DNA of 40,997 nt from Candidatus Woesearchaeota archaeon (GTDB lineage: Archaea > Nanobdellota > Nanobdellia > Woesearchaeales > JAGVZT01). The notes under the pieces were generated by a model that did not search any database, was not told the DNA's origin, and was given only the letters and a program-made list of their open reading frames with translations. Below, one piece after another: positions 697 through 40,997 of the stretch (the stretch's first letter is position 1; each line of letters opens with the position of its first letter). Made by a program: the position numbers and the translations under genes. The stretch spans positions 1 through 40,997 of the forward strand of contig JAGVZT010000023.1 of the NCBI GenBank assembly GCA_018302335.1, read 5' to 3'.

Positions 697-3096
697 CTAG
701 TGCCTCATCCCGGCGGGAACGACCTTGCGGTACACATCCTCAGGGGCTCTCTTCTCGCCGTCCACGGTGAGCAGCAGCCCGACCGTGATGTCGAAGAGCC
801 GCTCATTCTCCTGCAGATAGGGCAGGATGAGCTTCCAGTCCTCTGCAGTGAAAGGAGCGAATTTCCCTCCGTTGAGCTGGCTCTCCTCCACCTTGCGCTG
901 CGGGTCCCGCACATAAATAGCGCCTCCTGATGCGAGCGAGAGCAGATTGCCCCCTGGATACGGCGTCTCGAGCTCCTCGATGCCGCGCTCAGCGGAAATT
1001 CCGTTGAGCACCACGAATCCCCCGCCTTTCAGCGGGTCGCCGGCCATGAAACTCTCTGCAAGGTAATCGAGACAGGTTCCGTTGATGACCACGCGGGGCT
1101 TTCCCACGGCGTTGATGAGCGGCCTGCCTGCGCAGTTCCCGCGGATGAAAATCTCGCCTCCCTTGGCGGCATAGCCCATGGTCTGCCCCACGTCCCCGTG
1201 GATGACCACCTTGCCGGACTTGAGGATCTGGCAGAGCTGGTCCTGGCCCGCGCCGTGCACGTGCACCTCCGCGCCGTCGAGCCCGGAGCCGAGATAATCG
1301 CCAGGGTTGCCGTAGCAGTCGACCCGCAGCGCGCTCTCGGGACCTAGACCGCTGCCGATGAAGCGATGGCCCCGGAGATGGTAGAGCAGCAAGCGCTTCC
1401 ATCCCATCCGGGACGCCTTGACCACGAAGCGCGCCGCGCTTTCCGGTCCCTCGACAGGAAAATCCTGGCAATCGACGGCAAGGGCCTCGCCGGGCTTCGG
1501 TAGCTTTCTCTGCGTCGCCCAGCTGCAGCGCGGCAAGCCTGAGAGCGCCTTGACCAGCGCCTCGTCCAGCACGTCGAGCAGCGCGCTCCTTGGCTCCTTC
1601 GAGGGATAGCGCAGGTTCATGAGCCCGGTCAGCGCCTCCACCGCAGCGAGCTTGTCCTTTCCTGCGGCGATGCCGAGGGCGTGCTTGCGGAACGCAGCGA
1701 GGTCCATGGCCGCAATCCTGCCGCTGTCCGCATTGTGGATATCATACGGTATGGCGGCCGAGTCTGGATGCTGTACCTTTATTTCGCGCCCGAACTTGTC
1801 CGCGCAGCGCAGCTCCCTCGTCGCGCGGTCCACGGTGAACACGAAGGCTCCGCCGTCGGTGTGCGAGCCGCCGCGGGCATTCCAGTAGCGGTCCGCGCGG
1901 GACGATGCGGCCTTTCCATCCTCGTGGAGGGAGCCGAGCATGGCGTCAATGGCCTGGCGCTCCGATGCGATGAGCCCCAGTTCCTTGCCCTGGAGCGCGA
2001 AGACCTGGGGGCGCAGCATGGAGGTGTCGGTGATGCCTATCAGCTCATAGCCGGAACTCTGAGGAGCGTTGGCCGCGATGATGAAGAACCACGGGCCGTC
2101 CGGCGAGCTCGGGAGGTGCACCGTCTGAATCTCCCGGTAGATGCGCTGCTTCTCCGGTGGCAGCAGGTGGAAGTCCCGTTCGGTCGTGGGGGCGAGGGCC
2201 TCGATGAGGTATTCCAGCGGGTAGCCATATGTTCTGCGCAGGACATCGAAGAGCAGCGCCGCGACCTCCGTGTCGGTGAGGAAGAGGGGCGTGATGCCGC
2301 GCTCCGCGAGGTACGCCACCGTGCTGCTGTAATTGGAGAAGTCGCCGTTGTGCACCAGGGCGTCGTGCAGTCCGATGAAGGGATGAGCGCCACCAGGATG
2401 CCACACGGCTCCTTTGGTGGGATAACGGTGGTGGCCTATCCAGACATGGGCGCGCAGGTTCTCCAGCTTGTAGCAGGGGATGACGTCGTCGCCATACCCG
2501 ACAAGCTTGAAGACCACGAGGTTCTTCGCATGAGACAGCACGAAGGCGCGCTTCTCCTGGAGCGAAGAGTAGAACGCGCTGTTGAGCAGATAGGTGTTCT
2601 GGTAGACGAACTCGTCCTCTGCGGCATCCCGGGTCAGCGCAGCAAGATGATGCTTCGCGATGAACGATTCCAGCTCGGCCGGAAGGGCACGCACGAAATA
2701 CTGCACCACTTTCGGAGGCGGGACCTCAAGGCCGAGCTTCCGATAATCGCGCATCGCGACCTCGCGCCCCTTGTCCACGCGGAAGCGCGGGGTGATGAAG
2801 CGGGACTCCACCTCATCTCTCGCCGAAGGGTCGAGGTACGCGACCTGCAGGATGTAATCCTCCTCCAGGACCCTTGCGGAGACGCCGAGTTGCCTTGCAT
2901 CAAGCCCTGCTGCGGCGATGCCTCCCCCTTTTCCGTTGCCGCGGTTCTTCATCTGCCGCAGCGCGGTGAGGAGGTACTTTCCCTCGAGCTGTTTCGCGCT
3001 CGCCGCACCGATGACCCCGCAGCCGCCCTCGTCCTCGCTCCGCTGCGGGACAGCGCCCTGAGGGAGAAGTCTCCTGGCCGCGGTGAGGGGGTTCAT
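697..3096 (-). CDS. Glutamate synthase, class II glutamine amidotransferase domain fused to GXGXG domain
   Basis: GCGVIGA GATase-II start, IGHHRYPTKGAVWHPGGAHPF and LVHNGDFSNY motifs; C-terminal GXGXG-type repeats (GNPGDYLGSGLDGAEVHVHG, GDVGQTMGYAAKGGEIFIRGNCAGR). Start taken at MNPLTAARR, overlapping the upstream stop by ATGA. Confidence 0.88.
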   Translation of the reverse strand: MNPLTAARRLLPQGAVPQRSEDEGGCGVIGAASAKQLEGKYLLTALRQMKNRGNGKGGGIAAAGLDARQLGVSARVLEEDYILQVAYLDPSARDEVESRFITPRFRVDKGREVAMRDYRKLGLEVPPPKVVQYFVRALPAELESFIAKHHLAALTRDAAEDEFVYQNTYLLNSAFYSSLQEKRAFVLSHAKNLVVFKLVGYGDDVIPCYKLENLRAHVWIGHHRYPTKGAVWHPGGAHPFIGLHDALVHNGDFSNYSSTVAYLAERGITPLFLTDTEVAALLFDVLRRTYGYPLEYLIEALAPTTERDFHLLPPEKQRIYREIQTVHLPSSPDGPWFFIIAANAPQSSGYELIGITDTSMLRPQVFALQGKELGLIASERQAIDAMLGSLHEDGKAASSRADRYWNARGGSHTDGGAFVFTVDRATRELRCADKFGREIKVQHPDSAAIPYDIHNADSGRIAAMDLAAFRKHALGIAAGKDKLAAVEALTGLMNLRYPSKEPRSALLDVLDEALVKALSGLPRCSWATQRKLPKPGEALAVDCQDFPVEGPESAARFVVKASRMGWKRLLLYHLRGHRFIGSGLGPESALRVDCYGNPGDYLGSGLDGAEVHVHGAGQDQLCQILKSGKVVIHGDVGQTMGYAAKGGEIFIRGNCAGRPLINAVGKPRVVINGTCLDYLAESFMAGDPLKGGGFVVLNGISAERGIEELETPYPGGNLLSLASGGAIYVRDPQRKVEESQLNGGKFAPFTAEDWKLILPYLQENERLFDITVGLLLTVDGEKRAPEDVYRKVVPAGMRH

Positions 3097-4346
3097 CGTC
3101 GGTACACCAGCAGGTCCTTCCTTCCGCGCAGTTCCTGCACGCTCTTCAGTCCGAGGGAGGCGAGCAGCTCGCGCAGTTGCGCCGCCCACGAGGAGTAGAG
3201 ATTGAGCAGGCGCCTCGCGCCCCACTCGGGCTGGATGAACTGCCCGAGAAGCTCGTCGGTGGTGCAGATGCCAATCTGGCAGCCCCTGCCGCGCTCACAG
3301 TTCCCGCAGTGCGTGCAGCCGACCGCGATGGTCTCTGCGGTGCCGATGACGCAGCCGTCGGCGCCCAGGGCGATGGCCTTCGCGACATCGTACGCGGTGC
3401 GGATGCCACCGCTCGCGATGAGGGTCACCTTGTCTCGTACTCCCTCGCTGGAGAGGTACCTGTGCACGCGGGGGATGGCGAGCTCGATGGGCATGGCGAT
3501 GTTCTTCTTCGCAATCTCCGGCGCAGCGCCCGTCCCCCCGTAGCCGCCGTCGATGTGGATGATGTGCGCGCCCGCGTCGTAGGAGCCGATGGCGACCATC
3601 TCCACGTCAATGGGTGTCGAGACCTTGACCGAGACCAGCACTCCGGGATGCACGGTCTTGACCCAGTCGACGTGCTTCTTGTGGTCCTCGACGGAGTAGA
3701 CGCTGTGGAACGGGAACGGCGAGTAGAGGCTGGTCTTCTCCGCGGACTCGCGCATCCGCGCGACCTCTGCGGTGACCTTGTCCGCCAGCAGATGCCCTCC
3801 CAGTCCGGGCTTCGCGCCCTGGGCGTACTTGAACTCCATCACCCGGCAGCTCTGGATGGTCTCCTCGCTGACCCCGAACATCCCGGTGGCGACCTGGGTG
3901 ATGACGTGGTCCTTGTAGGGCAGGAGTTCAGATGGATACCCTCCCTCGCCTGTTGAGGTGAGGGTGCCTGCTGCCTTCGCAGCCATCGCGCGGGAGAGCA
4001 TGAAATTCAGACTCACGCTCCCGAGGGACATGCCTCCGCCGTACCACGGAAGGGAAAGCGTGACCTGGCCGCTGTCCCTGCGGTTGAGCGGGATGGAAAG
4101 GGACACCTGCTCGGCCGCGATGCCTGACGAGCTCAACTTGAAGTCGAGCCTGTCGAAGCCTCCGCCCGAGGCGCCTATGCGATGCTCGATGTTCTCCGGA
4201 GACTTGCCCGTGAGAGCCTGCCACCACGTCGCGAGAATCAGCTCCTTGGTCCAGCGCAGGTCGCCCAGCGCGCTGTCCTGCGGAAGGCCGAGCTGCGGCA
4301 GCAGCTCGATACCTCTGCGGATGTGCGCGCGGTGCTTCTCCGCCAT
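3093..4346 (-). CDS. gltB: Glutamate synthase FMN/Fe-S (GltB-like) domain protein
   Basis: GGMSLGSVS, GEGGYPSELLPY, HIIHIDGGYGGTGAAPEIAKKN, ASGGIRTAYDVAKAIALGADGCVIGTA and CTHCGNCERGRGCQIGICTT motifs. Start chosen at MAEKHRAHIRRG. Confidence 0.88.
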   Translation of the reverse strand: MAEKHRAHIRRGIELLPQLGLPQDSALGDLRWTKELILATWWQALTGKSPENIEHRIGASGGGFDRLDFKLSSSGIAAEQVSLSIPLNRRDSGQVTLSLPWYGGGMSLGSVSLNFMLSRAMAAKAAGTLTSTGEGGYPSELLPYKDHVITQVATGMFGVSEETIQSCRVMEFKYAQGAKPGLGGHLLADKVTAEVARMRESAEKTSLYSPFPFHSVYSVEDHKKHVDWVKTVHPGVLVSVKVSTPIDVEMVAIGSYDAGAHIIHIDGGYGGTGAAPEIAKKNIAMPIELAIPRVHRYLSSEGVRDKVTLIASGGIRTAYDVAKAIALGADGCVIGTAETIAVGCTHCGNCERGRGCQIGICTTDELLGQFIQPEWGARRLLNLYSSWAAQLRELLASLGLKSVQELRGRKDLLVYRR

Positions 4347-4350
4347 CAGC

Positions 4351-5745
4351 TCAATAGCCCTGGATGTCACCGAATGCCTCCCGTTCCAGCTCGTCCGCGA
4401 AGAGCGCCCTGCCGACATTGCCGCGCAGCCGTCTCGCCTCTCTGACTCCCATCGCGCTCATCATCTCGATGAGCTGGTGGTGCCAGCTCGTCATGAGATT
4501 GAGAATGCGTCGGGTGCCCCATTCCACCGGGATGCGATGCCTCTGGATGGCGCTGCGCTCGGGGAAGCGGCACTCCCCCAGGAAGCGGGCCTGCAGCGCG
4601 ACCAGCAGCGCGGTATCCAGCGCGACAGCATCGGCGCCGCAGAGCAGTGCCTTCGGGATGTGCTCCGCGAGGATGATGCCTCCGCTCGCGATGAGGGTGA
4701 CCTCGTTCCGGATGCCCTCCTGCACGAGACGTTGATGGACATCGAGGAGGGCATCCTTGAGATGGCGTTCCGTGCTCTCGAAGGTGCGGCCGTGGTAGTC
4801 CGCGCAGAGATGGAGGAAATCCGCGGTGCGGGACAGCTCCACAGCCCTTTCCACAAAGCCTTCTTTCGTGGGAAGCCGCACCCCTAGGGGTCCGGAGAAG
4901 AGTTTCCGTGCCTCCTGCAGCAGCGCAGCGTCCTCCAGCTCGATGGCCGCGCAGCGCTGCGCCGCGCGAACGCTGTCCAGGTCGCCTGCGAGAGCGATGC
5001 AGCGCGCTTCCTTCTGCACATAGCGGCCGACAAAGAGTGTTCCTACGTTCCCGGCCGCAGTCCTGATGCTTTCCGTGATGTCGGCGTTGCTCACCTGCTC
5101 GGGCAGCGCATCGAAGATGATGGGGATAGGTATCTCCACGGTTCTTGAGCTGGTGATGAGGTCGCCGCTGGCATCGAACTCCAGATGGCTTGCGCGCCTG
5201 CCGATATCCACCGAGGTGGAGATGTATTCCCTGCCGTAGACTCCGTCCCGCGTCGGGCGCACGATCTCGGACATGTCGGTCCACATGGCATCCCAGCCCT
5301 CGCCACGGAAGGCGCCCTTGTAGCCCATGCCGCGCACAGGGACCTTCCCGGTGTGCGCCTCGTACAGCACCGTGGACAGAGGCGTTGAGCCGGTCGCGGC
5401 CGTGGGCGTCCAGTAGCTGTCCCCCTGCTCGGCGAACGCGGGGTTGCGTACCACCGAGCAGACCTCGGGATGCTCCTGCACGCAGCGCATGCAGCCGGTG
5501 CACTTCTCCACGCGCGGCGAGAATCCACCGAACGGCCCGGAGAAGACGCCGTAGATGCATGGCCTGCTGAGCAGTGCCTCCCGGTGTGCGCTGCCGAGGA
5601 GCTTGCGGTTGTACCCGAGAGCTTCCTTGAGAATGAGCCTCGCGAGGCCAGGCTTGCTGACCTTCGGAAGGAACGGCCCAGGCTGGGGGAAGAGCGGAGG
5701 AGTCTCCTCCGCACGCAGGCGAAACATTCGGTAGGTGCTCCCCAT
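4351..5745 (-). CDS. Divergent GltB-like FMN-domain paralog with N-terminal Cys cluster
   Basis: C-terminal half parallels the downstream GltB (NEVTLIASGGIILAEHIPKALLCGADAVALDTALL; EWGTRRILNLMTSWHHQL). N-terminal CTGCMRCVQEHPEVC resembles a 4Fe-4S motif. TATA-like tataaata on the minus strand about 25 nt upstream. Confidence 0.75.
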   Translation of the reverse strand: MGSTYRMFRLRAEETPPLFPQPGPFLPKVSKPGLARLILKEALGYNRKLLGSAHREALLSRPCIYGVFSGPFGGFSPRVEKCTGCMRCVQEHPEVCSVVRNPAFAEQGDSYWTPTAATGSTPLSTVLYEAHTGKVPVRGMGYKGAFRGEGWDAMWTDMSEIVRPTRDGVYGREYISTSVDIGRRASHLEFDASGDLITSSRTVEIPIPIIFDALPEQVSNADITESIRTAAGNVGTLFVGRYVQKEARCIALAGDLDSVRAAQRCAAIELEDAALLQEARKLFSGPLGVRLPTKEGFVERAVELSRTADFLHLCADYHGRTFESTERHLKDALLDVHQRLVQEGIRNEVTLIASGGIILAEHIPKALLCGADAVALDTALLVALQARFLGECRFPERSAIQRHRIPVEWGTRRILNLMTSWHHQLIEMMSAMGVREARRLRGNVGRALFADELEREAFGDIQGY

Positions 5746-5949
5746 ACCTTACTAGGGATTCATGGGGTATTTATAGGTTATGATGAACAAATGCACTCAA
5801 AAAAAGGATAATAGTAATCTTCTGTCCAATCCGCTACCTTTCCTGCAGCGCGACCGATACGGATGTTTGGATGCATTCCAGCACAGGCATTCTTCCTCTT
5901 ACGAAAAAGATTTATGAACCTGTGGGCTTTCTGTACGCAGGGGGAACGG

Positions 5950-6843
5950 ATGACCACTGTCATCGCAGTAACAGGGATTGACCCGGACACCGGGAAGCCC
6001 TATACTATTCTCGCTTCTGACACCCAGGGCACCCTGACAGGATACGAGGTGGTGGAGGAATGGGGCAGGCGCGGGGTGCAGCGCTACGCGCGCCCGGTGA
6101 ACCAGAAGCAGGAGTTCTCGAAGCTCCGTGCTCCGGAGGGCATGCATTATGCCATCGGCTTCGCGGGCGCGGCGCCGGGCCAGCTGGCGGTCCGCGACCC
6201 CTCCGAATTCGACAATGTCCCGATGTACCCCTGGGAGCGCAAGGCCCTCTACCGCTCCGCGGGAGAGGCGAAGGACCTCGTGGAGCGCTGCAGGCAGCTC
6301 CTTGGAGAAAAGCCTGTTCCGCAGAGAGAACGCCAGGGTTTCGAGGATGCTCTCTATGCTGACCTCGATGGCAAAGGCGGCTCCTCCCTCGTGGACCGGC
6401 TGAACAGGCTCCAGCGCTCGGTCGCGGGGGACGAGGGCTCGACGGTCTACCTGCTCGCACGGGATTTTGGGGATTCGCACGCGCTGTATTACCTGGACCG
6501 CAACGGCAAGGCAAAGCGCATCGACGCGCAGGGTGCCGGCGCCGCGATTGGCTCCGGAGAGCGGGTCGCCGTGGAGTACATCCAGCAGGAGGGAGGCGCG
6601 CTGCTCGGCCAGCACAAGGGGCGCAAGGTCCTGTTCGCGAAGCCCGAGGACGCGCTCCGCCTCGTGGTCGGAGCGGTACGCGCCGCGACGGAGAAGGACC
6701 TCTTCAGCAGCGGCCTTGACGTGGTGGTGATGTCCGATGGGAAGCGGGTCTCCTATCGGAAAGACATCGAGCAGTGGACGGACGACTTCCGCCGCACGCT
6801 TGGTGAGAGCCTCGAGAAGCTCGTCGAGAAGGAGACGAGCTAG
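5950..6843 (+). CDS. Proteasome-beta-like Ntn hydrolase, paralog 1
   Basis: MTTVIAVTGIDPDTGKPYTILASDTQGT (Thr after Met, Asp in ASDTQ), GMHYAIGFAG, STVYLLARDFGDSHALYYLDRNGK, AIGSGERVAVEYIQQE, PEDALRLVVGAVRAATEKDLFSSGLDVVVMSDGKRV. These follow the order of proteasome beta motifs. Start set at the Met immediately before TT. Confidence 0.75.
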   Translation: MTTVIAVTGIDPDTGKPYTILASDTQGTLTGYEVVEEWGRRGVQRYARPVNQKQEFSKLRAPEGMHYAIGFAGAAPGQLAVRDPSEFDNVPMYPWERKALYRSAGEAKDLVERCRQLLGEKPVPQRERQGFEDALYADLDGKGGSSLVDRLNRLQRSVAGDEGSTVYLLARDFGDSHALYYLDRNGKAKRIDAQGAGAAIGSGERVAVEYIQQEGGALLGQHKGRKVLFAKPEDALRLVVGAVRAATEKDLFSSGLDVVVMSDGKRVSYRKDIEQWTDDFRRTLGESLEKLVEKETS

Positions 6844-6873
6844 CGCATCCTACGGACTCGTATCCTGAATTCC

Positions 6874-6941
6874 TCGGCCGCGATGCCTAGGATATCCGGC
6901 GGTCTGGCCGGTATGCCGACGATTCCTCCCAGCGCGGCTGA
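6874..6941. repeat. Palindromic intergenic element, copy A
   Basis: tcggccgcgatgcctaggatatccggcggtctggccggtatgccgacgattcctcccagcgcggctga; imperfect terminal inverted repeats and alignment to copies B, C, D and H. Confidence 0.75.
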
Positions 6942-6977
6942 CCCTGTGCACGAGCATACGGGCTCTGCACGGAAATG

Positions 6978-6985
6978 TTTAAATA
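6978..6985 (+). promoter_or_regulatory. Archaeal TATA box for the ORF at 7002
   Basis: TTTAAATA about 20-25 nt upstream of ATG 7002, consistent with a leaderless mRNA. Confidence 0.6.
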
Positions 6986-7001
6986 GTAGTATCACTAATA
7001 A

Positions 7002-7862
7002 ATGACAAAAATGACAACAATATTCTCCCTCACCGCACGGGACCCGAAGAGCGGCAAGCCCTATACCCTGCTCGGGACTGACCGGCAGAGCACGAGCGGG
7101 GGTATCAAGGAGTCCGTCGACAAGATTCATCTCCCGGAAGGGATGCGCTATGCGGTGGCGGCCACAGGGCGCAGGCCGCAGTACTTTGGCGACGAGTTGG
7201 GCCTGAAGTATATTGCATACCTGTACGATATGCGTGGGCCGTCCGAGAACATTGGATTCTCTCCTGCCGATGTCCCGCAGCTGATTGAGGCTCGCAAATG
7301 GCTGCTCACCGCGGAGAAGCCGGTGCGCGCGGAGCTTCGGCAGCGCGGCCAGGAGACGCTTCTGCGGTTGCTGGAGGGAGGTCACTGCGCCCTGGTTGAG
7401 CAGCTCAACGCCTTGCAGGCTCACCTGGAGGGTGACGACAAGGCGGTGACCTCCTACCTCATCGCGGACGGTGATGATTCTCGCCACACGGTGTATCGCG
7501 TGCGGCCGGACGGAGAGGTCGAGAGCGCGCACGCAGGCCCGCTGGCCATGGGCTCCGGCGGGCCATTCGTGGAGGACTATCTCCAGGACGAATGCGCGCG
7601 CCTGGGGAAATCCTATGACCCGCAGAGAGGATGGGACGTCTGGATGCGGCCGGAAGAGGCGGTGGGCATCGTCCTCTCGGCGGTGGGAGACGCCACTTCG
7701 CGCGACCTCTACAGCAGCGGCCTCGACCTCGTGATGCTGCACGACGGCAGGCGGATGCGCTTCACCGACGACATTGATGCGGTCGCGGCGCAGTACGAAA
7801 GCGTCCTGCGAGAGACGTTGGAGCAGCGCGTCGCGCGCGCGCTGGCGGTGAAAAGGTCATGA
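7002..7862 (+). CDS. Proteasome-beta-like Ntn hydrolase, paralog 2
   Basis: M(TKM)TTIFSLTARDPKSGKPYTLLGTDRQST, VDKIHLPEGMRYAVAATG, SYLIADGDDSRHTVYRVRPDGEV, AMGSGGPFVEDYLQDE, EEAVGIVLSAVGDATSRDLYSSGLDLVML. TATA TTTAAATA about 22 nt upstream. Start could be 7002 or 7011. Confidence 0.8.
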   Translation: MTKMTTIFSLTARDPKSGKPYTLLGTDRQSTSGGIKESVDKIHLPEGMRYAVAATGRRPQYFGDELGLKYIAYLYDMRGPSENIGFSPADVPQLIEARKWLLTAEKPVRAELRQRGQETLLRLLEGGHCALVEQLNALQAHLEGDDKAVTSYLIADGDDSRHTVYRVRPDGEVESAHAGPLAMGSGGPFVEDYLQDECARLGKSYDPQRGWDVWMRPEEAVGIVLSAVGDATSRDLYSSGLDLVMLHDGRRMRFTDDIDAVAAQYESVLRETLEQRVARALAVKRS

Positions 7863-8707
7863 CCACGCTCATCGGCATCCAGGGACATGATTCGCGCTTG
7901 GGCACTCCGTATGCGCTGCTCGCTGCTGATACGCGTGTGTCGCACTGGAGGATGGGTCCTCTGCATGACGACAAGGACAAACTCATCATGCCCGCCGACG
8001 AGCGGATTGCTCTCGCGCAGGCAGGGACGGACCTGCGTTCGCTCGCCCTTTCAGTCGAGCGAGGGCTCCTTGGCACACCGGAATGGACAGGTCCGTGCTC
8101 CAGCGATGCTGCGCCGTGGGACTGCACGCAGGGGAGCCACGGGGAGGCAGAGTGCAGTGCGTGGGAGGACTTGGTCAGCTCGATGCAGGCCGAGAGAAGG
8201 CCTGACTTCCTGACTGCGCTCGGCGCGACCGCGGGGATATACCGGAGCCTCATACGAGAGCCTGACTCCTGTTCTGCCGCGAGGGCGATGCTGTCGCTCG
8301 GCGGCGCCACGAGGGAGATGAACGATTACCTTATCCCCTTCGGATGGTGCGTCGAGTTCATCGTCGGCGTGCAGACCCCTGGCAGCGCTGGACTGGCGCG
8401 GGCCGGCTCAGAGGGGTTGAGAGCAGTGCAAGAGTGGCGTGTGACTGAAGGAAGCGGTTGTGCGCACGCGAGAATGTTCCTCTCTGGCAAGCAATCCTCG
8501 TCCCTTGAGGAGGCTGTTTCCCTCTCGCTCGGCGCCTTGGAGGCCGCTACGAGTGCAGATCCCCACACCTCACCGTGGGCGCAATTCGCAATTCTCGTTC
8601 CAGGGAAACGAATCCGCCTTACGGATCGATATGCGGCAGGCTACTCGCCGGAGGGGCAGTCCGATGCCATCCGTGCGTACCAGGACTGCCTCGCCGTCCT
8701 CCGCTAG
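7859..8707 (+). CDS. Proteasome-beta-like Ntn hydrolase, paralog 3 (most divergent)
   Basis: MTTLIGIQGHDSRLGTPYALLAADTRVS, KDKLIMPADERIALAQAGTDLRSLA, EGSGCAHARMFL, LEEAVSLSLGALEAATSAD. ATGA overlap with paralog 2. Confidence 0.68.
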   Translation: MTTLIGIQGHDSRLGTPYALLAADTRVSHWRMGPLHDDKDKLIMPADERIALAQAGTDLRSLALSVERGLLGTPEWTGPCSSDAAPWDCTQGSHGEAECSAWEDLVSSMQAERRPDFLTALGATAGIYRSLIREPDSCSAARAMLSLGGATREMNDYLIPFGWCVEFIVGVQTPGSAGLARAGSEGLRAVQEWRVTEGSGCAHARMFLSGKQSSSLEEAVSLSLGALEAATSADPHTSPWAQFAILVPGKRIRLTDRYAAGYSPEGQSDAIRAYQDCLAVLR

Positions 8708-21136: not shown

Positions 21137-21229
21137 CGCTAATAATTTTCCCTCTAGAGTGATGATTCAGTGGCTAGGGGAGGCGCTTGATAGAATTTCG
21201 CTTGAAGACATTTGCGTGAGGTAAGCAGC

Positions 21230-22438
21230 ATGACAAAGGTACCAACGGACGGCGAACGCATCGAGAATCCGCTTGCGGCGCTCTGGAAGCGCGCCCGGGG
21301 GATCGCGGAGCGGCAGGGCGACTCTCTTGACGATGACGTGAAGGAGGCCGTGGGAGACCTCGCGACCGAGCTGCCAAAGATAGGAGGAGAGCTCGGCGTC
21401 AGGGCCGGCGAGCATACCCTGCGCGTCATGGTGGAACTCGCCATGTACCAGCGGGACAAGGAGGGGTATCTTGCGAGGAAGCGCGAGACCGCGCAGGAGC
21501 GCATCGCCAGCGCTCGCGCAAGGGCAGGAGACATAGCTGGCAAGGCCGAGCATCTCTATGCTGCCGAGCGAGCCAAGCTCGGAGAGCAGGGTACCGGCAC
21601 TTACGGAAGGGGGCTTGCAAAGCGCGGGCTCAACGCCGCGAGGGGCATCTTCGGAAAGCTGCGGCAGGATGGCGAGGCGTTGCTCGATGAACTGGCATCC
21701 TCTGAGATTGCCACCTCTTCGGAGCGGCGCATTCCAGGATGCAGGGCGCTCATCGGGGAGTATGCCGTGGGAGAGGTAATCACCCGTGCGCGAGCGTCGC
21801 GTGTCCGCAATGTCGTGAGCGCGCTGGAGCGGGATGAGGCGATGGATGCCACGGTGCGGAGCCAAGTGCTCGAGCTGTACTCCGGATTCGCCACCACCGA
21901 TGTCGATGAGGTGCTTGAGCGCGCTTCGGACGACCCGACGCTCGGCGGCCGGATGCGGGACCAGGAGGCCCTGATGCAATCCATCGCGCTGCTTGAGGAA
22001 CGCAGGGAAAGCTTCGCGCGGAAGGCTTCCCTGCCCGGCAAGTCGGACATCGGTTCGCTCGCCGCCGAGCTGACCCTCCGCTTCTCGGACTACCCGGATA
22101 CCGCAGACCTGCTCGTGCCAGGCCATGAGGAGATGCTCATCGGCGAATATCTGCCCCGGGGCCATGCGCCCCTCACCAAGGGCAGGGTGCGGACGGTCAA
22201 GTATCTCATTGCCGCCGCGGAGGATATCCTACCGGACAGTGTCGCTGCGCGACAGCTGCTCAAGGACATCGCCGGCTATGCGGCCGAGGGCATCAGCAGC
22301 GTCGAGGGCCATCTGGTCATGGATGCGCAACGGCTGGAGCCTCAGGTCGCACAGTATCCTGAGCTGAAGGTGAGGCTGCAGCGCACCAGGGAGGAGCTGG
22401 AGCTGCTGTACGCGCACCGCGACGCGCTGGGAGGTTAG
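21230..22438 (+). CDS. Hypothetical coiled-coil protein, paralog 1 of a duplicated module
   Basis: Start MTKVPTDGERIENPLAALWKRARG after GAGGT. Clearly paralogous to 22730-23572 (LYSGFATTDVDEVLERASDDPTLGGRMRDQEALMQSIALLEERRESF). Confidence 0.82.
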   Translation: MTKVPTDGERIENPLAALWKRARGIAERQGDSLDDDVKEAVGDLATELPKIGGELGVRAGEHTLRVMVELAMYQRDKEGYLARKRETAQERIASARARAGDIAGKAEHLYAAERAKLGEQGTGTYGRGLAKRGLNAARGIFGKLRQDGEALLDELASSEIATSSERRIPGCRALIGEYAVGEVITRARASRVRNVVSALERDEAMDATVRSQVLELYSGFATTDVDEVLERASDDPTLGGRMRDQEALMQSIALLEERRESFARKASLPGKSDIGSLAAELTLRFSDYPDTADLLVPGHEEMLIGEYLPRGHAPLTKGRVRTVKYLIAAAEDILPDSVAARQLLKDIAGYAAEGISSVEGHLVMDAQRLEPQVAQYPELKVRLQRTREELELLYAHRDALGG

Positions 22439-22442
22439 CACC

Positions 22443-22724
22443 ATGGATGACTTGTTCAGCAGGACAGTGGAACCTGACGATAAGGACCTCAAGGAACGTT
22501 TGGAGGAGAGGCTCGGGGTGGAGATTGACCCCAAGGTCGCTGCCCTGGAGGTGGGAGGCGGCGCTGCGGCACTCTATCTCGCGGTCGGAGCGATACCGTA
22601 TGTGGGTGTGCCTGCCCAGCGTATCTTCGGGAAGTTCCTCCTGGGCGCGGGCGCTGCCCTCGGGGGAGAGGTCTACCGGAGGACCCACAAGAAGCGTGCT
22701 ACAAAGCTCGATGAGGAGAGGTGA
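22443..22724 (+). CDS. Small transmembrane protein (93 aa)
   Basis: MDDLFSRTVEPDDKDLKERLEERLGVEIDPKVAALEVGGGAAALYLAVGAIPYVGVPAQRIFGKFLLGAGAALGGEVYRR. Confidence 0.72.
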   Translation: MDDLFSRTVEPDDKDLKERLEERLGVEIDPKVAALEVGGGAAALYLAVGAIPYVGVPAQRIFGKFLLGAGAALGGEVYRRTHKKRATKLDEER

Positions 22725-22729
22725 CGGAT

Positions 22730-23572
22730 ATGGCGAAAAAGGGAGTACCGGCTGATGATGGCGCATTGCGCGATGAGAAAGGCGTTGCGAGCGGAGTCCC
22801 GCTGTCCTCGCATTTCAGCTCGCTCTGGAAGCGTGCGGAGAGCATCGCGGAGAGCGGCGAGAGCATTGACGACGCGGTGCGGCAATCTGCTGCGGAACTC
22901 GCGGTGCCTGGAGTGGATACCGAACTGCCCCAGCGGACAGGAGAGTACACCCTGCGTGCGATGGTAGAGCTTGCGCTCTACAAGAAGGACCCTGACGCAT
23001 ACCTTCTCAAGAAGCGCTCACAGGTGGAGGAGGGCATCGCACAGGCGAAGGAGAGGGCCGGAGACCTCGCGGACAAGGCGGCCGGGCTGTATGACGCCCA
23101 GCGGAAGAGGATTGAGCAGGAGGGCATCGGAACCTACAGCAGGGACGTCGCGAAGCGCGGGCTGGACGCAGCGCGCGGGCTCTTCGGAAGGCTGCGCGTC
23201 CAGAGCGAGAAGGCCTTCGACTACCTGGCGGAGTCGGACATCGCCACGCCGTCGGAGCGGCGCATCGAGGGCTGCGCTGTCCAGATAGGCGCGTATCTGC
23301 CCATGGAGCTCATCACTGCCGGCACCGCGAATCGCGTGAGCGCGTTCGTGGGCAAGCTTGGCCAGGATCCGGAGATGCTCGCGCTCGACGAGAGCGTGCG
23401 AAGCCAGGTCACGGAGCTCTATTCGGGCTTCGCCACCACCGAAGTGGGCGAGGTCCTGGAGCGCATCTCGCAGGAGCCGACCCTCGGGGGGAGGCTCAAG
23501 GACCAGGAGCGGCTGCTGAAGGCAATCTCGCTTCTGGAGGAGCGCAGGAAGAGCTTCGAGGACAAGGCGTAG
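22730..23572 (+). CDS. Hypothetical coiled-coil protein, paralog 2 (shorter)
   Basis: MAKKGVPADDGALRDEKG...LYSGFATTEVGEVLERISQEPTLGGRLKDQERLLKAISLLEERRKSFEDKA*; colinear with paralog 1. Confidence 0.8.
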   Translation: MAKKGVPADDGALRDEKGVASGVPLSSHFSSLWKRAESIAESGESIDDAVRQSAAELAVPGVDTELPQRTGEYTLRAMVELALYKKDPDAYLLKKRSQVEEGIAQAKERAGDLADKAAGLYDAQRKRIEQEGIGTYSRDVAKRGLDAARGLFGRLRVQSEKAFDYLAESDIATPSERRIEGCAVQIGAYLPMELITAGTANRVSAFVGKLGQDPEMLALDESVRSQVTELYSGFATTEVGEVLERISQEPTLGGRLKDQERLLKAISLLEERRKSFEDKA

Positions 23573-31721: not shown

Positions 31722-32675
31722 ATGACGTTCATCAGCGTGAAGACCATCAAGGGGAAGAAGCGACGCTACCTTGAGCGCTCTTTCCGTCTGCCTGACGGCA
31801 GGGTCCGGAAGCTCTCCGTCTACCTGGGCGGCGCCGTCCGGGAGCGCAGCTTCCCCGACGAGAGCAGAAAGCGTCTGGACTCCAAGGTGAGGGAGGCGTA
31901 CCTTGATTTCGCCAGCGGGCGCTACAGGAAAGTAGGTGTGTTCACCAACGCCCTCATCAGGAGGCTCGAGGAGATGCGTCTCGCCTATGCGGACATGAAG
32001 AGGGGCCTCACCCGGTCGCAGATGCAGGATGTCATCGACCGGTTCACGGTGAACTTCACCTACGAGTCGAACGCGCTCGAGGGAAACTCCCTCACCCTCA
32101 AGGATGTCAGCATGGTCTTCCAGGAGGGCCGCGTGGCAGGGGAGAAGGAGCTTCGCGAGGTCTATGAGACCATCAACACGCGGAAGGCCATGCGCCTCCT
32201 GTTCTCTGGAAAGCTTCGGATGAGAGAGCGCGACATCATCCGCCTCCATCGTATTCTCGTAGAGCGCACTGGTGTCCCGCCAGGATACAAGAGATTTCCC
32301 AACTTCCTCCTGCACCGCACGGTGCGCACCACCCCACCGGAGAGTGTAGCGCATGAGATGGGTTCTCTCCTCGACTGGTACAGGACCAGCACGGAGATGC
32401 ACCCCCTCAAGAGGGCTGCGGCCTTCCATGCGAGGTTTGAGCGCATCCATCCCTTCGAGGATGGCAACGGCCGCATGGGGAGGCTGCTCGTCAACATCAT
32501 CCTCATCGAGAACGGCTTCCCGCCGCTCATCATCCGCAAGACGCAGAGGCTCTCCTACCTTGCTACCCTGGAGGCATTTGACAAGGGTCACTCGACAAAG
32601 CTCGACCGGTTCTTCGTTGAGCGCTACAAGGAGACCTACCGGAGGTTTTTCCTAGTGTACGTGCGGTATCTTTGA
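31722..32675 (+). CDS. Fic-family protein with N-terminal inhibitory-type motif
   Basis: Fic motif HPFEDGNGRMGRLLVN; upstream TYESNALEGNSLTLKDV inhibitory-helix-like motif. TATA (ttataaatatg) upstream. Confidence 0.92.
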   Translation: MTFISVKTIKGKKRRYLERSFRLPDGRVRKLSVYLGGAVRERSFPDESRKRLDSKVREAYLDFASGRYRKVGVFTNALIRRLEEMRLAYADMKRGLTRSQMQDVIDRFTVNFTYESNALEGNSLTLKDVSMVFQEGRVAGEKELREVYETINTRKAMRLLFSGKLRMRERDIIRLHRILVERTGVPPGYKRFPNFLLHRTVRTTPPESVAHEMGSLLDWYRTSTEMHPLKRAAAFHARFERIHPFEDGNGRMGRLLVNIILIENGFPPLIIRKTQRLSYLATLEAFDKGHSTKLDRFFVERYKETYRRFFLVYVRYL

Positions 32676-33902: not shown

Positions 33903-33984
33903 GTCGCCACCTCTGCCGCAGGGAGTGGCATGCCGTTTATAAATGATGCCAAGGAATAAATACGCACGGCAGCATCATGCGGCC

Positions 33985-34845
33985 ATGACCAAGCCGCCGT
34001 GGCTCACCATCCGCGTCGCTCCCGGCGACGGCGTGCCGCGCCTGCGGACGCTGATGCGCTCCTCGCGCCTGCACACGGTGTGCGAGGAGGCGCACTGCCC
34101 GAACATGCAGGAGTGCTGGTCAGGCGGCACCGCCACTTTCATGCTCATGGGCGATGTCTGCACGCGCGGCTGCAGGTTCTGCCATGTCTCCTCGGGAACG
34201 CCCGGACCGCCGGACGCAGGAGAGCCCGAGAACATCCTTCTCGCAGCGAAGGAGATGCAGCTCTCCTATGTCGTGCTCACCTCGGTGGACCGGGATGACC
34301 TCGAGGACCAGGGAGCGGAGCATTTCGCAGAGGCAATCAGGCTGCTGAAACAGGAAGGGTTTCTTGTGGAAGCTCTTATTCCTGATTTCCGCGGCGAGAC
34401 CGCGCTTGTCTCGCGCGTCATCGCTGCCGGCCCGGACGTGCTCGGCCACAATATCGAGACCGTGTCGAGACTGCAGGGTAGAGTCCGTGACCGGCGAGCG
34501 AACTACGAGCAGAGCCTCAAGGTTCTGCGCCATGCGAAAGGCCCTGGCGTCTACACCAAGAGTTCGCTCATGCTCGGTCTCGGCGAGACGGAGGAGGAGA
34601 TTCTTGCGACCATGGACGACCTTCTCGGCGCAGGAGTCTCGCTGCTGACCCTCGGTCAGTACCTGCGGCCGAGCAGACGACACCTTCCCGTGGCGGAGTA
34701 CGTCCGGCCCGAGGTCTTCGCGGAACTGCGCTCGGCCGCGTTGCAGAAGGGTTTCCTGTACTGCGCTGCGGGGCCCTTCGTGCGGAGCTCCTACCGCGCG
34801 GGAGAGCTGTTCATGGAACGGGTGCTCCGGAAGATATCCGGTTGA
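33985..34845 (+). CDS. lipA: Lipoyl synthase (radical SAM)
   Basis: VCEEAHCPNMQECWSGGTATFMLMGDVCTRGCRFCHVSSG, VVLTSVDRDDLEDQGAEHFAEAI, GPDVLGHNIETVSRLQGRVRDRRANYEQSLKVL, YTKSSLMLGLGETEEEI. Confidence 0.97.
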   Translation: MTKPPWLTIRVAPGDGVPRLRTLMRSSRLHTVCEEAHCPNMQECWSGGTATFMLMGDVCTRGCRFCHVSSGTPGPPDAGEPENILLAAKEMQLSYVVLTSVDRDDLEDQGAEHFAEAIRLLKQEGFLVEALIPDFRGETALVSRVIAAGPDVLGHNIETVSRLQGRVRDRRANYEQSLKVLRHAKGPGVYTKSSLMLGLGETEEEILATMDDLLGAGVSLLTLGQYLRPSRRHLPVAEYVRPEVFAELRSAALQKGFLYCAAGPFVRSSYRAGELFMERVLRKISG

Positions 34846-36281: not shown

Positions 36282-38906
36282 ATGACGCAGAAAGCCCAGC
36301 TGACTGTCTTCATCGTCCTCGGCCTCGTCATCCTCTCGGTCTTCGCGCTTGCCATGTACGTCCGCGTGCAGACCGTCGAGACCCGCGTGGGCTCCCTGGA
36401 GCAGCAGGTGGACCTGCAGGGCGAGCGCACCGCGCTGAAGCTCATGGTGGACGACTGCCTCAAGCAGAAGACGGTGAGGGCCATCGAGCTCTACGGCATC
36501 AACCCGGACGAGGAGACGGAGGGGCTCATCACAGCCTTTGTGGAATACGAGATAGGCCCATGCCTTGACCTGGAGCAATTCCGCAAGGCAGGCTTCGAGA
36601 TTGACCAAGACGCAGGATACGCAGCAACGGAGATATCGGAGGGCGCGCTGAGCGTGGAGCTGCATCTCCCGCTCACCCTTGCCTCAGCGGAGAGCCGCGT
36701 CTCTGTCGAGGATTTCTCGTTCACCCTGCAGAAGACGAGATACATCAGCCTGCCGACCGATGACCAGGGAGTGATGCTCCAGCCCTTCACGGTGACGACT
36801 CCCAACGGCCGCGCTGAGCTCAGCATCCCGCAAGGGGTGCGCGTCTGGCGGAGCGGCTCTCCTGTGCGTCAGGACGAGGTGCTGGAGCTGCGACTGGTGG
36901 ACAGGAATCACGAGGGGCTGCTGAACGCACTCTCCATCGGGGAGACGCTCTACCTCATGGAAGGAGGTATCGAGTTCGACCCCGGAGCAGTGCTCACAAT
37001 GTATTATCGGGATGGGGAGATTCCGCTCTGGGAGAGCCAGCAGGACCTCACCCTTTCGGTGTACAACGAGCGGACTGGGTTGTGGGAGACGCTGCCCACG
37101 GCAGTGGACCGTAGGCGGAACCGCATCTCCGCGCTCGTGACGCACTTCTCGATGTTCTCAGTCACCTCCAGCTTCTGTTCTCACAAATCGAGCAATGACC
37201 AGGTGCTCTCATCCGGCGCGGTGTTCAAGGAGCGTTGCAGGTCGTGCACGGCTGCAACCACAAAGGAGGGGAGCAGCCTGTACTTCACCGGCACCGGGGC
37301 GCAGTACTACTCCTATCCCGTGCTCGGGACTCCCAACGGACCGTGCATCCTCCGGGACTGGGACGGGGACGACCCGGACGGCGATGGCAAGAAAGAGCGG
37401 ACGAGGAAGATGGACGAGCTGGACTGCGTCATCGGGGAAGAGGGTGACTACAACTACGCGACCGGCGAGTGCACCTACGAGGTGGACGCGACGCCGGAGA
37501 CCTACGGCTACACCAGCGTCCAGCAGGTGGGCGGCCGCGGGACGTACAGCTTCTATGTCCAGGAGAAGGGGAATGCCTGCCGGACCAGCGAGGTCCCGGT
37601 GGACATCGTCATCTCGTCGCTCTCTGCCGGGGACATCGCCACGGGCTCTCTCCGTGGCGGGGAGATCCATGCCGGGACGAACTACATCGACGTCCAGGTG
37701 GACAACACCAACGGGGACGCATGCGCCTCGGCAGAAGTCACGGTCACCGTGCGCGGCGCCGGCTTCGTCCCGAGCTGCGCCCGCGGCGCAAAGGGCGGTC
37801 CGGGTGCTCGCATCACGCAGAACTGCCAGTGCGGCACCGCCAATGTGGACATCCGCGGAGGAAAGGAGCTGTACTGCTGCAACAGCGGCATCGTGGTGGA
37901 CAATGCTCTGAAGTGCGTCCAGAGCGCTTCGAGTTCCTGCCGGCTCGGCTATCTCAGCACCTCGGACAACGGGTGCTGGTGCGGCTCGAATCAGTTCAGC
38001 TTCAACGCAGCCGGGAATGCGTTCTTCTGCTGCCCTGGCAAGGGACTCGTCGCATCAGGGGAGCAGTGCAATGTCTCCGGCCCCTCGTGCGGCATGCCCG
38101 CCGGAGCGGCGGTGACCGGCGCAAGCATCAGCCCGGATGAAGTCCTACGGCCGCTCTGCTCGCCTGCCGCGCAGGAATGCAGTTGCTCGTACTGCGACAA
38201 TATCCAGGAGCAGCTCCAGAAGGAACTCTGCTCGTACAACTGCCTTTCGGACTGCATGGGTGTCGGCGCCATGGTGAATGAGGTGCGCGCTGCCGAGAGC
38301 TACTGCTTCCCGAAGTTCGGTATCTCGGTGGGCAGCACCGAGGACCTCGTGCAGCAGCTGCAGGACTACGACCCCGATGCGGCCATCAGTGTCGGGGACT
38401 ACATCCCGCTCGCGGATTCCCTAAGCTGCGTGGCGGAGCAGCTCAGCGGCGTGAATCCCCAGCTCGGCCCTCTTGCGCAGGTAGCATCCGGAGTGTCCTC
38501 GTTCGTGCTTGATGTCATCCAAGGGAACGAGGTGGACCTGCTCTGCTCCTGCGGCCAGCTTGAGAGCGGCGCTGCCTGCAGCGCGCGCATATGGAACGAC
38601 CCCCTGTGCAATCCCGAGTGCTGCGAGTGCCCTGGCGGGCTGGACATCCTGGACTCTATCGGCTGTGCGATCCAGCAGGCCCTTGAGTCCCGGTGCGTGG
38701 ATGAGCGGCCGCCCACGGGTGACGGATTCAGACGAAGGATAGGCCACTGCCAGAAGGACAGCGATGGCACCCTGTACGATTGCGCCCCCGGAGCGCTGGG
38801 CATCATGAGCTGCAAGCCGGCGCCGGATGCACAGCCCAGCGAGAATGTCGAGCCTGCGGTGCTCCTGCCGCCCGAGTGGACTCCCACTCCTGATGTAAAT
38901 CCCTGA
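36282..38906 (+). CDS. Large Cys-rich extracytoplasmic protein, N-terminally anchored, paralog 1
   Basis: N-terminal TM LTVFIVLGLVILSVFALAMYV, coiled segment, EF-hand-like DWDGDDPDGDGKKE, then repeated CxC...CC...C modules. Confidence 0.88.
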   Translation: MTQKAQLTVFIVLGLVILSVFALAMYVRVQTVETRVGSLEQQVDLQGERTALKLMVDDCLKQKTVRAIELYGINPDEETEGLITAFVEYEIGPCLDLEQFRKAGFEIDQDAGYAATEISEGALSVELHLPLTLASAESRVSVEDFSFTLQKTRYISLPTDDQGVMLQPFTVTTPNGRAELSIPQGVRVWRSGSPVRQDEVLELRLVDRNHEGLLNALSIGETLYLMEGGIEFDPGAVLTMYYRDGEIPLWESQQDLTLSVYNERTGLWETLPTAVDRRRNRISALVTHFSMFSVTSSFCSHKSSNDQVLSSGAVFKERCRSCTAATTKEGSSLYFTGTGAQYYSYPVLGTPNGPCILRDWDGDDPDGDGKKERTRKMDELDCVIGEEGDYNYATGECTYEVDATPETYGYTSVQQVGGRGTYSFYVQEKGNACRTSEVPVDIVISSLSAGDIATGSLRGGEIHAGTNYIDVQVDNTNGDACASAEVTVTVRGAGFVPSCARGAKGGPGARITQNCQCGTANVDIRGGKELYCCNSGIVVDNALKCVQSASSSCRLGYLSTSDNGCWCGSNQFSFNAAGNAFFCCPGKGLVASGEQCNVSGPSCGMPAGAAVTGASISPDEVLRPLCSPAAQECSCSYCDNIQEQLQKELCSYNCLSDCMGVGAMVNEVRAAESYCFPKFGISVGSTEDLVQQLQDYDPDAAISVGDYIPLADSLSCVAEQLSGVNPQLGPLAQVASGVSSFVLDVIQGNEVDLLCSCGQLESGAACSARIWNDPLCNPECCECPGGLDILDSIGCAIQQALESRCVDERPPTGDGFRRRIGHCQKDSDGTLYDCAPGALGIMSCKPAPDAQPSENVEPAVLLPPEWTPTPDVNP

Positions 38907-38922
38907 GAGACTAACGTCACGG

Positions 38923-38992
38923 TCGGCCGCGTTGCCGAGGATACCCGGCATTCCGGCGAGACAGCACGGATATCGTGAAGCAGTGCGGCCGA
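38923..38992. repeat. Palindromic intergenic element, copy D
   Basis: tcggccgcgttgccgaggatacccggcattccggcgagacagcacggatatcgtgaagcagtgcggccga, 17 bp after the upstream stop; perfect TCGGCCGC/GCGGCCGA ends. Confidence 0.8.
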
Positions 38993-39032
38993 GACGTGGA
39001 GACGCTCTTCAGGGCCCGCGGACTGCAAAGAT

Positions 39033-39039
39033 ATTTAAA
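39033..39039 (+). promoter_or_regulatory. Archaeal TATA box for the 39061 gene
   Basis: atatttaaac about 25 nt upstream of ATG 39061. Confidence 0.6.
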
Positions 39040-39060
39040 CTTCTCCGCTCCGGCAGGACC

Positions 39061-40997
39061 ATGGGCCTCTCGGAGAGACGCGCGCAACTCACCACCTTCA
39101 TCATCGTCGGCCTCGTCATGGTGGCTGTCTTCGCGCTGGCCATCTACGTGCGCGTGCAGACCGTCGAGACCCGCGTGGGCTCCCTGCAGCAGCAGGTGGA
39201 CTTGCAGGCGGAGCGCACCACGCTGAAGCTCATGGTGGACGACTGCCTCCGGCAGAAATCAATCAAGGCAATCGAGCTCTACGGCCTGAACCCTGACGAT
39301 GAGACGCAGCATCTCATCACCTCCTTCGTGGAATACGAGGTGGTGCCCTGCCTGGACGTGCAGCAGTTCGTCAACGCGGGCTTTGGGATCCAGCAGGGTG
39401 CCGGCTATGCCGCCACCACCATCAGCGAGGGTGCGGTCGAGGTCAAGCTCCATCTTCCGCTCACGCTGCGGAAAGGGCTCGCCAGCACGGTCGTCGAGGA
39501 CTTCTCCTTCACCCTCCAGAAGGTGCGTTACATCAACCTTCCCACGGATGACAGCGGCGTGCTGCAGCAGGCGTTCACCGTCACCACCCCGAACGGCCGC
39601 GCGGAGCTCACCATCCCGCAGGGGGTCGCGGTGCGGCGCTCGGGAGCCCCTGTCAGGCCTGACGATGTCCTGGCGCTCCGTCTCGTCGACCGCAACTACA
39701 ACGGCATGCAGAACGCGGTCTCCATCGGGGAGGTGCTCTACCTCATGCAGAGCGGGGTCGCCTTCCAGCCGGCGGCCACCCTGACACTCTTCTATGAGGA
39801 TGACGAGATTCCCCCATGGGAGAATGAGGAGCAGCTGACCCTTTCGGTCTACAATGACGAGCGCGGAATCTGGGAGACGCTCCCGAGCATCGTGGATGCG
39901 GAGCGCAACAAGATCACCGCGCAGGTGACGCATTTCTCCCTCTTCTCGGTCACGAGCAGCCTCTGCCGCTTTGATGTGGAGACCGAGCAGGTCATCGCCT
40001 CGGGGCTGGTGTACAAGGAGCGCTGCAGGCCGTGCAGCGCGCCGACGCAGGCGAAGGGCGCGGGACTCTACTTCACGGGAACCGGGCCACGGGATTACCC
40101 CACGCCTGTCCTGGGCACCCCCAACGGGCCCTGTGTCCAGCGCGACTGGGACGGCGACGACCCGGACGGCGATGGCAAGAAAGAGCGGACCAGGAAGATG
40201 GATGAGCTGGACTGCGTCATCGGGGAAGAGGGCGACTACAACTACGCGACCGGCGAGTGCACCTACGAGGTGGACGCGACGCCCGAGACCTACGGGTATG
40301 ATGATGCGCGATACGTGGGTGGCACAGCCACCTGGACGTTCCAGGTAGCGAAGGACGGGAACGCCTGCGAGGCGAGCGAGAGCGTCAGCGGCCCGGTGGA
40401 CTTCACCGTCATCGCGTCTCCGGGCGACACGGTGAGCGCAACCCTCAACGGCGTTTCCGTGCTGCAGGCAGGCGGCCCGGTGGCGAGCAAGGCGCAGCTT
40501 CGGCAGGGCACCAACACCATGACCTTCGCCGTGGAGAACGCCAACGGGGACGCGTGCGCGGAGGCCCAGACGGAGATCACCGTCCACGGCGCGGGCTTCC
40601 TGCCGAGTTGCTCCACGGGCGGCCAGCTCTCCGGCAACTGCCAGTGCGATCAGCAGAACGTCAACATCCAGGGCAAGAAGCTCTTCTGCTGCCCGAACGG
40701 CGTCATCGTGGAGAACAGCAGCGCGAAGTGCCAGCCGGGCTATGTCGACCCGCTCACCAACGCCACGAACATCTGCGGGAGCGAGTTCCTCTCTGCCGCG
40801 GACCACGGCTGCTACTGCGGTTCAGCGGGCCAGCAGTACAACCACTACGGCGCGGCGAAGCACTACTGCTGCGGACTCGATGGACTGAGTAAGACCCCGT
40901 GCGAGCAATGCAGGAAGGACGGCGGCGACGCGAGCGATGGCTGCCTCTGCGGTGGATTCCAGGCGAAAGCGGGACAGGTATGCTGTCACGCAGGCGG
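39061..40997 (+). CDS. Large Cys-rich extracytoplasmic protein, paralog 2, partial (runs off right edge)
   Basis: My translation MGLSERRAQLTTFIIVGLVMVAVFALAIYVRVQTVETRVGSLQQQVDLQAERTTLKLMVDDCLRQK... is colinear with 36282-38906. Open to the window end, hence absent from the ORF track. Confidence 0.9.
   Translation, partial: MGLSERRAQLTTFIIVGLVMVAVFALAIYVRVQTVETRVGSLQQQVDLQAERTTLKLMVDDCLRQKSIKAIELYGLNPDDETQHLITSFVEYEVVPCLDVQQFVNAGFGIQQGAGYAATTISEGAVEVKLHLPLTLRKGLASTVVEDFSFTLQKVRYINLPTDDSGVLQQAFTVTTPNGRAELTIPQGVAVRRSGAPVRPDDVLALRLVDRNYNGMQNAVSIGEVLYLMQSGVAFQPAATLTLFYEDDEIPPWENEEQLTLSVYNDERGIWETLPSIVDAERNKITAQVTHFSLFSVTSSLCRFDVETEQVIASGLVYKERCRPCSAPTQAKGAGLYFTGTGPRDYPTPVLGTPNGPCVQRDWDGDDPDGDGKKERTRKMDELDCVIGEEGDYNYATGECTYEVDATPETYGYDDARYVGGTATWTFQVAKDGNACEASESVSGPVDFTVIASPGDTVSATLNGVSVLQAGGPVASKAQLRQGTNTMTFAVENANGDACAEAQTEITVHGAGFLPSCSTGGQLSGNCQCDQQNVNIQGKKLFCCPNGVIVENSSAKCQPGYVDPLTNATNICGSEFLSAADHGCYCGSAGQQYNHYGAAKHYCCGLDGLSKTPCEQCRKDGGDASDGCLCGGFQAKAGQVCCHAG

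Follow-up and report, generated by a model that had tools for sequence, protein, structure and literature searches.

Three tandem genes of an archaeal genome predicted to encode divergent, propeptide-free proteasome-beta-like Ntn hydrolases

Introduction

Why would a small-genome archaeon carry three proteasome-like genes in a row, and what kind of proteins do they encode? The window, by which we mean the whole 40,997-nucleotide stretch of archaeal DNA analysed here, contains three adjacent genes (P1, P2 and P3, together the trio) that a preliminary description took for proteasome-beta-like Ntn hydrolases, suggesting an undescribed protease system. We ask how the three proteins relate to known proteasome homologs and to the canonical proteasome of the same genome, whether their active sites look functional, and how much of the system is new.

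The background to this question is the catalogue of Fuchs, Alva and Lupas (2021), which adds 22 proteasome-like subfamilies from bacteria and archaea, several of them archaeal (PMC8665760). As the parts of the catalogue used here describe them, these subfamilies are propeptide-less, many of them with inserts, and are found together with other proteasome homologs, while neither AAA+ partners nor telling gene neighbourhoods were found for them; in the PHI and PMI proteins an insert at the pore loop could block ring formation (PMC8665760).

Results

The three open reading frames are where the preliminary description put them, all on the + strand: P1 at 5950..6843 (297 aa, predicted to be a propeptide-less proteasome-beta-like Ntn hydrolase), P2 at 7011..7862 (283 aa from the ATG at 7011, or 286 aa if the ATG at 7002 is used) and P3 at 7859..8707 (282 aa, the most divergent copy). 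GC by codon position (positions 1/2/3) is coding-like in each, at.69/.44/.83 for P1,.68/.45/.80 for P2 and.64/.55/.72 for P3, and because this pattern fits the + strand, we rejected the antisense open reading frames that run across the trio (e.g. 6840-7742 on the - strand). P1 is 37% identical to P2 and 27% identical to P3. The trio lies between glutamate-synthase-like genes and a gene for a DRG-type GTPase.

Signals upstream of the genes help to choose between alternative starts. By eye, we find an archaeal TATA box, TTTAAATA (6978..6985, +), about 26-30 nt 5' of the ATG at 7011. It is a putative promoter of P2 and P3 in their own right, with a leaderless start and an expected start of transcription at about 7007-7011; since the box lies too near the ATG at 7002 for that codon to be included in the transcript, P2 more likely starts at 7011 (M|TTIF). 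A weak TATA-like element, TTTATGAA (5911..5918, +), also found by eye, lies upstream of the P1 ATG, and its position favours the start at 5950 over an upstream ATG at 5863. P3 follows P2 without a gap: the P2 stop and P3 start share 4 nt (ATGA, 7859-7862, +), and a Shine-Dalgarno-like GGTGA (7847..7851, +) lies 7 nt before the P3 ATG. At their likely starts all three proteins read Met-Thr, with no autocleaved propeptide before Thr1.

We first consider what the trio is related to. A profile built from the trio recovered divergent relatives of full length from genomes of the same order, and iteration brought the set to 22 proteins from 22 other genomes (counting only full-length proteins that start with M-T). 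When the trio is left out of the profile, these 22 relatives score P1 at 80.3, P2 at 64.6 and P3 at 24.2 bits, where the highest score among 900 shuffled sequences is 3.9 bits; when the profile is made from 21 canonical psmB proteins instead, the scores are 11.4, 16.2 and 9.4 bits. In the PDB, the profile of all 25 members finds solved alpha and beta chains of archaeal proteasomes and aligns along their length, with E values of 7.4e-16 and 3.5e-15. Its second position, the Thr, falls on residue 1 of the mature protein in several of the beta structures. The Pfam family Proteasome is matched by 19/25 members at E <= 0.01. Taken singly, only P2 shows a match (E 1.2e-3), which falls below the cut-off, while neither P1 nor P3 has one; no other fitting Pfam family appears for the trio at E <= 1. 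The best of the trio reaches 14.5 bits against TIGR03634, far from the equivalog cut-off of 224 bits. Taken together, the profile comparisons support placing P1-P3 in the proteasome-like Ntn hydrolase superfamily.

Simpler searches miss this relationship. Single-sequence and degenerate-pattern searches of genome contigs, viral contigs, phages and plasmids returned no relatives of the trio, because the trio is too divergent for them, and the wider family was likewise not seen in the viruses or plasmids searched. Several candidates were set aside along the way: a match in genome G055 (E 0.004) is a membrane-anchored, unrelated protein, most of 140 profile-matched genomes contribute canonical psmB, as judged by length and a TGTTT start, and a role in antiphage defence found no match in PADLOC.

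The phylogeny separates the family from the canonical subunits. In a maximum-likelihood tree the divergent proteins split from psmB plus psmA at 100/100; within the divergent clade the trio forms a single clade (95/89), in which P1 and P2 pair at 98/93. Of about 520 genomes sampled from the phylum, 22 (~4%) have a relative: 10 are among 353 genomes of the order, and a further 12 belong to the same class. The distribution is patchy and almost entirely single-copy, although in G436 a second divergent copy lies on a separate contig. The sole genome of the same family that we could compare, G001, has the DRG gene and neither the trio nor a detectable relative of the glutamate synthase. P1-P3 are probably a lineage-specific tandem array belonging to a side-branch of the superfamily that is patchily distributed in the phylum.

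The preliminary description had noted that no ATPase or alpha-subunit gene lies nearby and had proposed a look for the canonical genes. The observation is correct for the locus and does not extend to the genome (1.56 Mb, with archaeal PAN, psm and DRG genes): PsmA, PsmB and PAN are all encoded elsewhere in it, the PsmA gene next to an SBDS-like gene and the PAN-type ATPase as a protein of 384 aa ending in YLRMFG. The missing neighbours therefore say little, and the trio is an addition to the canonical proteasome rather than its replacement. Replacement is rejected for the wider family as well, since each of the 22 other carriers has at least one gene of psmA or psmB type that passes the Pfam cut-off, and most have both.

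Could the trio then be alternative beta subunits, which assemble with the canonical PsmA alpha ring into variant 20S particles? The trio shares superfamily and catalytic residues with PsmB, archaeal alpha and beta chains are the best PDB matches of the family, psmA is encoded in the genome, and haloarchaea, which mix 20S subunit isoforms, offer a precedent. We nevertheless consider this very unlikely. Similarity to psmB is very low (the trio scores 9-16 bits with psmB and 24-80 with the divergent family), the 100/100 split separates the trio from psmB, and the canonical psmB is retained. Furthermore, the trio proteins are 80-95 aa longer than PsmB and differ from it at surfaces used in assembly, where they lack a propeptide, carry a large pore-loop insert and have an extended C-terminus.

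Next we turn to the active site. Each catalytic position named in the preliminary description could be located in the alignment (the Met-Thr starts, the match to D17, the GSG at S129, and D166). The same description gave P2 and P3 a lysine at K33, which they have, and found none in P1; here it erred, as P1 carries K58 in 'FSKLRAPEG'. In canonical numbering (in brackets) the P1 residues are T2 (T1), D24 (D17), K58 (K33), G73 (G47), GSG 201-203, D250 (D166) and S253 (S169). The corresponding residues are T2, D24, K38, G53, GSG 181-183, D232 and S235 in P2, and T2, D24, K41, G56, GSG 198-200 and D234 in P3, where T237 replaces S169. Across the trio and the 22 relatives, T1, D17, K33 and G47 are invariant and the M-T start without propeptide is universal (25/25 in both cases); S129 and D166 are near-invariant, and most members have S or T at position 169. 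We conclude that the N-terminal-Thr active site of the trio is probably intact.

P3 deserves separate consideration, since at least one copy, P3 first, might be degenerating or catalytically dead and serve as a structural or regulatory subunit of a P1/P2 complex. P3 has the longest branch in the tree (3.63), a composition unlike the rest of the alignment and the weakest profile score; it lacks both the serine at residue 169 and the SG-D motif after it, and the relatives L023 and L011 have likewise lost parts of the D166/S169 set. P3 evolves fast. However, its retention of T1, D17, K33, G47, GSG and D166 at 27% identity argues for selection on catalysis, its reading frame is intact and it is coupled to P2 through the ATGA overlap. 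We therefore regard a dead copy as improbable.

The residues predicted to line the S1 pocket differ strongly between the paralogs. We counted the six classical pocket positions, 20, 31, 35, 45, 49 and 53, from the D17, K33 and G47 anchors (for P3, residues 31 and 35 were taken by hand from the sequence, with K41 as K33). In this order, P1 has G F R F A L, P2 has S V H A R F and P3 has V K I Q D L, so that the one shared residue is L53, common to P1 and P3. We infer differing substrate specificities for P1, P2 and P3: with a separate pocket for each paralog (F, A and Q at position 45; F, V and K at position 31), the array likely gives three specificities.

The roughly 80 extra residues of the preliminary description are real and, measured against the mature psmB of the same genome (202 aa), turn out to be distributed over several sites. 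The S1/S2 hairpin accounts for about +6 (T1-D17 spacing of 22 in the trio versus 16 in mature psmB), the D17-K33 interval at the S2/S3 turn for +18 in P1 only, the G47-S129 interval for +42 (P1), +42 (P2) and +56 (P3), the S129-D166 interval for about +10 to +12 in P1 and P2, and the C-terminus for about +20. The hairpin signature DxxxGxPYxLLxxD, said to be common to all three, is exact in P2 and P3, whereas P1 reads TILASD; the PY signature of this hairpin is absent from the other 22 relatives.

The predicted structures serve here as a guide to topology and not as proof of the fold. The AlphaFold models of the window proteins are of low confidence (pLDDT 39.5 and 42.3), because their alignments had three rows, the window sequences only. 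The low-confidence P1 model has the order beta4-alpha3-beta4-alpha2-beta-alpha, which is the one expected for the family with a single helix added. The 50 top-ranked PDB chains that Foldseek returns for this model all come from proteasomes or Anbu, with a probability of at least 0.96 and a best E of 7.6e-5, though the TM-scores are low (0.22-0.48). The weak P2 model has no sensible Foldseek match, the proteasome fold included. The G47-S129 insert is predicted to be helical in a low-confidence model, and in both such models two to three helices come after G47. By analogy with its catalogued counterparts, the large insert at the pore-loop position of the trio could block ring formation.

This insert bears directly on the main rival to our reading, that the trio are connectase-like proteins, i.e. 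monomeric, highly specific peptide ligases or transpeptidases, each acting on one partner protein without degrading it. Connectases are about 290 aa long. The trio is similar in size, archaeal and accessory in distribution, with an N-terminal Thr and no ATPase partner, and its inserts could cover the active site. Connectase itself is a monomeric, highly specific protein ligase which, as described in the parts of the catalogue used here, lacks the first helix pair (H1/H2) and carries its insert between S3 and S4 (PMC8665760). The main insert of the trio instead follows G47, probably in or after H1/H2, and the low-confidence model predicts helices in this region; together with the Pfam result, where Proteasome was the one fitting family, this makes a connectase-like trio unlikely.

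Other genes at this and related loci are recorded here as observations in their own right. Within the window, a glutamate synthase is seemingly split (697-5745, -) into genes in a row for a GXGXG-domain protein of 842 aa and for two Glu_synthase-domain proteins of 441 and 464 aa, the 441-aa one having no match in the only same-family genome. Adjacent proteins at 21212-22438 and 22721-23572 (+) have similar N-termini (LWKRA..IAE..DS.DD.V) and look like a tandem orphan pair, the first without a Pfam match. A Fic/DOC-domain protein (31722-32672, +; E 4e-21) has a relative near a divergent proteasome homolog at L088 (9727-10581). At 33943-34842 (+) lies a lipoyl-synthase-like radical SAM protein, which one would not expect in an archaeon with a small genome. 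A pair of very large proteins of secreted type (36282-40995, +) have N-termini of the form 'AQLT(V/T)FI(V/I)(L/V)G' and no Pfam matches, and similar ones adjoin DRG in the same-family genome (L100). Secreted-protein N-termini of the 'AQLTVFIVLG' type, together with the small genomes found throughout the order and the size and archaeal genes of this one, point to a DPANN archaeon of Nanobdellota/Woesearchaeales-like type. G+C shifts strongly within the family, from about 63% in the window genome to 33% at the locus of G001.

At the loci of relatives, a divergent proteasome-like gene and an archaeal LonB protease gene are divergently transcribed at L078:5917-8900. A gene for NFACT/RqcH, a ribosome quality control factor, adjoins the divergent gene in three genomes of one family, f63 (L073:7859-9758, L075:5724-7583 and L076:1597-3856), downstream in two and upstream in one. 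This is a weak lead towards a link between nascent-chain quality control and the divergent hydrolase; in the window genome NFACT is on contig C2, not beside the trio, and 11/23 carriers have no NFACT match.

Discussion

We consider it probable, from the sequence comparisons, that the trio are divergent, propeptide-free proteasome-beta-like Ntn hydrolases encoded in addition to a canonical 20S proteasome and PAN. The best reading of their function would be specialised N-terminal-Thr peptidases, or connectase-like transpeptidases, beside a normal proteasome. In such a mechanism, methionine aminopeptidase, for which Met-Thr is a good substrate, would remove Met1 and expose Thr1 directly, no autocatalytic propeptide step being required. 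Thr1, with D17, K33, the G47 oxyanion hole and support from S129/D166/S169, would attack peptide bonds in the way the proteasome does. The neighbourhood holds no gene for a dedicated ATPase, and the insert after the first helix pair, together with the longer C-terminal helices, may substitute for gating and ring contacts; targets might be unfolded proteins, peptides or specific proteins. An extension, that P1, P2 and P3 co-assemble into an alpha-less, ATPase-free hetero-oligomeric protease with three specificities, arisen independently of the eukaryotic beta1/beta2/beta5 division and working beside the normal proteasome, seems to us distinctly unlikely.

Which known system comes closest? HslV and the phage 'peptidase HslV family' phrog_1040 share the M-T-T start and exposed Thr1 with the trio family. 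The matches to phrog_1040 are weak and non-significant (E 0.003-0.016 in 5/10 members scanned; for the trio, E 0.015-0.016 for P1 and P2 and none for P3), and we find no NCBIfam HslV match, no HslU-type gene at the locus and no phage relatives of the family by tblastn. We know of no tandem triplets of Anbu or BPH, nor of a pore-loop insert in Anbu as large as that of the trio. Like the trio, Anbu and BPH are propeptide-less proteasome homologs; they are bacterial (PMC8665760, Table 1).

Compared by description, the trio is also close to the PHI, WPH and 'group II' homologs, which are propeptide-less with T1/D17/K33/G47 and an inferred proteasome fold, and occur in archaea alongside a true proteasome with no AAA+ partner nearby; PHI also has an insert at the pore-loop site and a long C-terminal helix (PMC8665760). 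The trio differs in that the parts of the catalogue used here mention no tandem triplet for them (PMC8665760). The idea of an undescribed protease system thus holds in part: similar homologs are catalogued (PMC8665760) and single-copy relatives occur across the phylum, but we found no description of a tandem triplet, and a literature search returned nothing joining proteasome, DPANN and Ntn hydrolase. New in the present case are the triplication in tandem, the signature of the S1/S2 hairpin and the prediction of three S1 pockets, and a three-gene array with three differing predicted substrate pockets seems to be undescribed.

Active relatives that need no propeptide are of practical interest, given that connectase has become useful as a protein ligase. 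For the family itself, the trio adds to the catalogued propeptide-less homologs a patchily distributed side-branch from small-genome archaea and provides an example of one propeptide-less homolog gene becoming three with diverged predicted substrate pockets. It thereby offers one small system for two questions: whether such homologs form rings, and whether multi-specificity proteasome-like assemblies have originated repeatedly.
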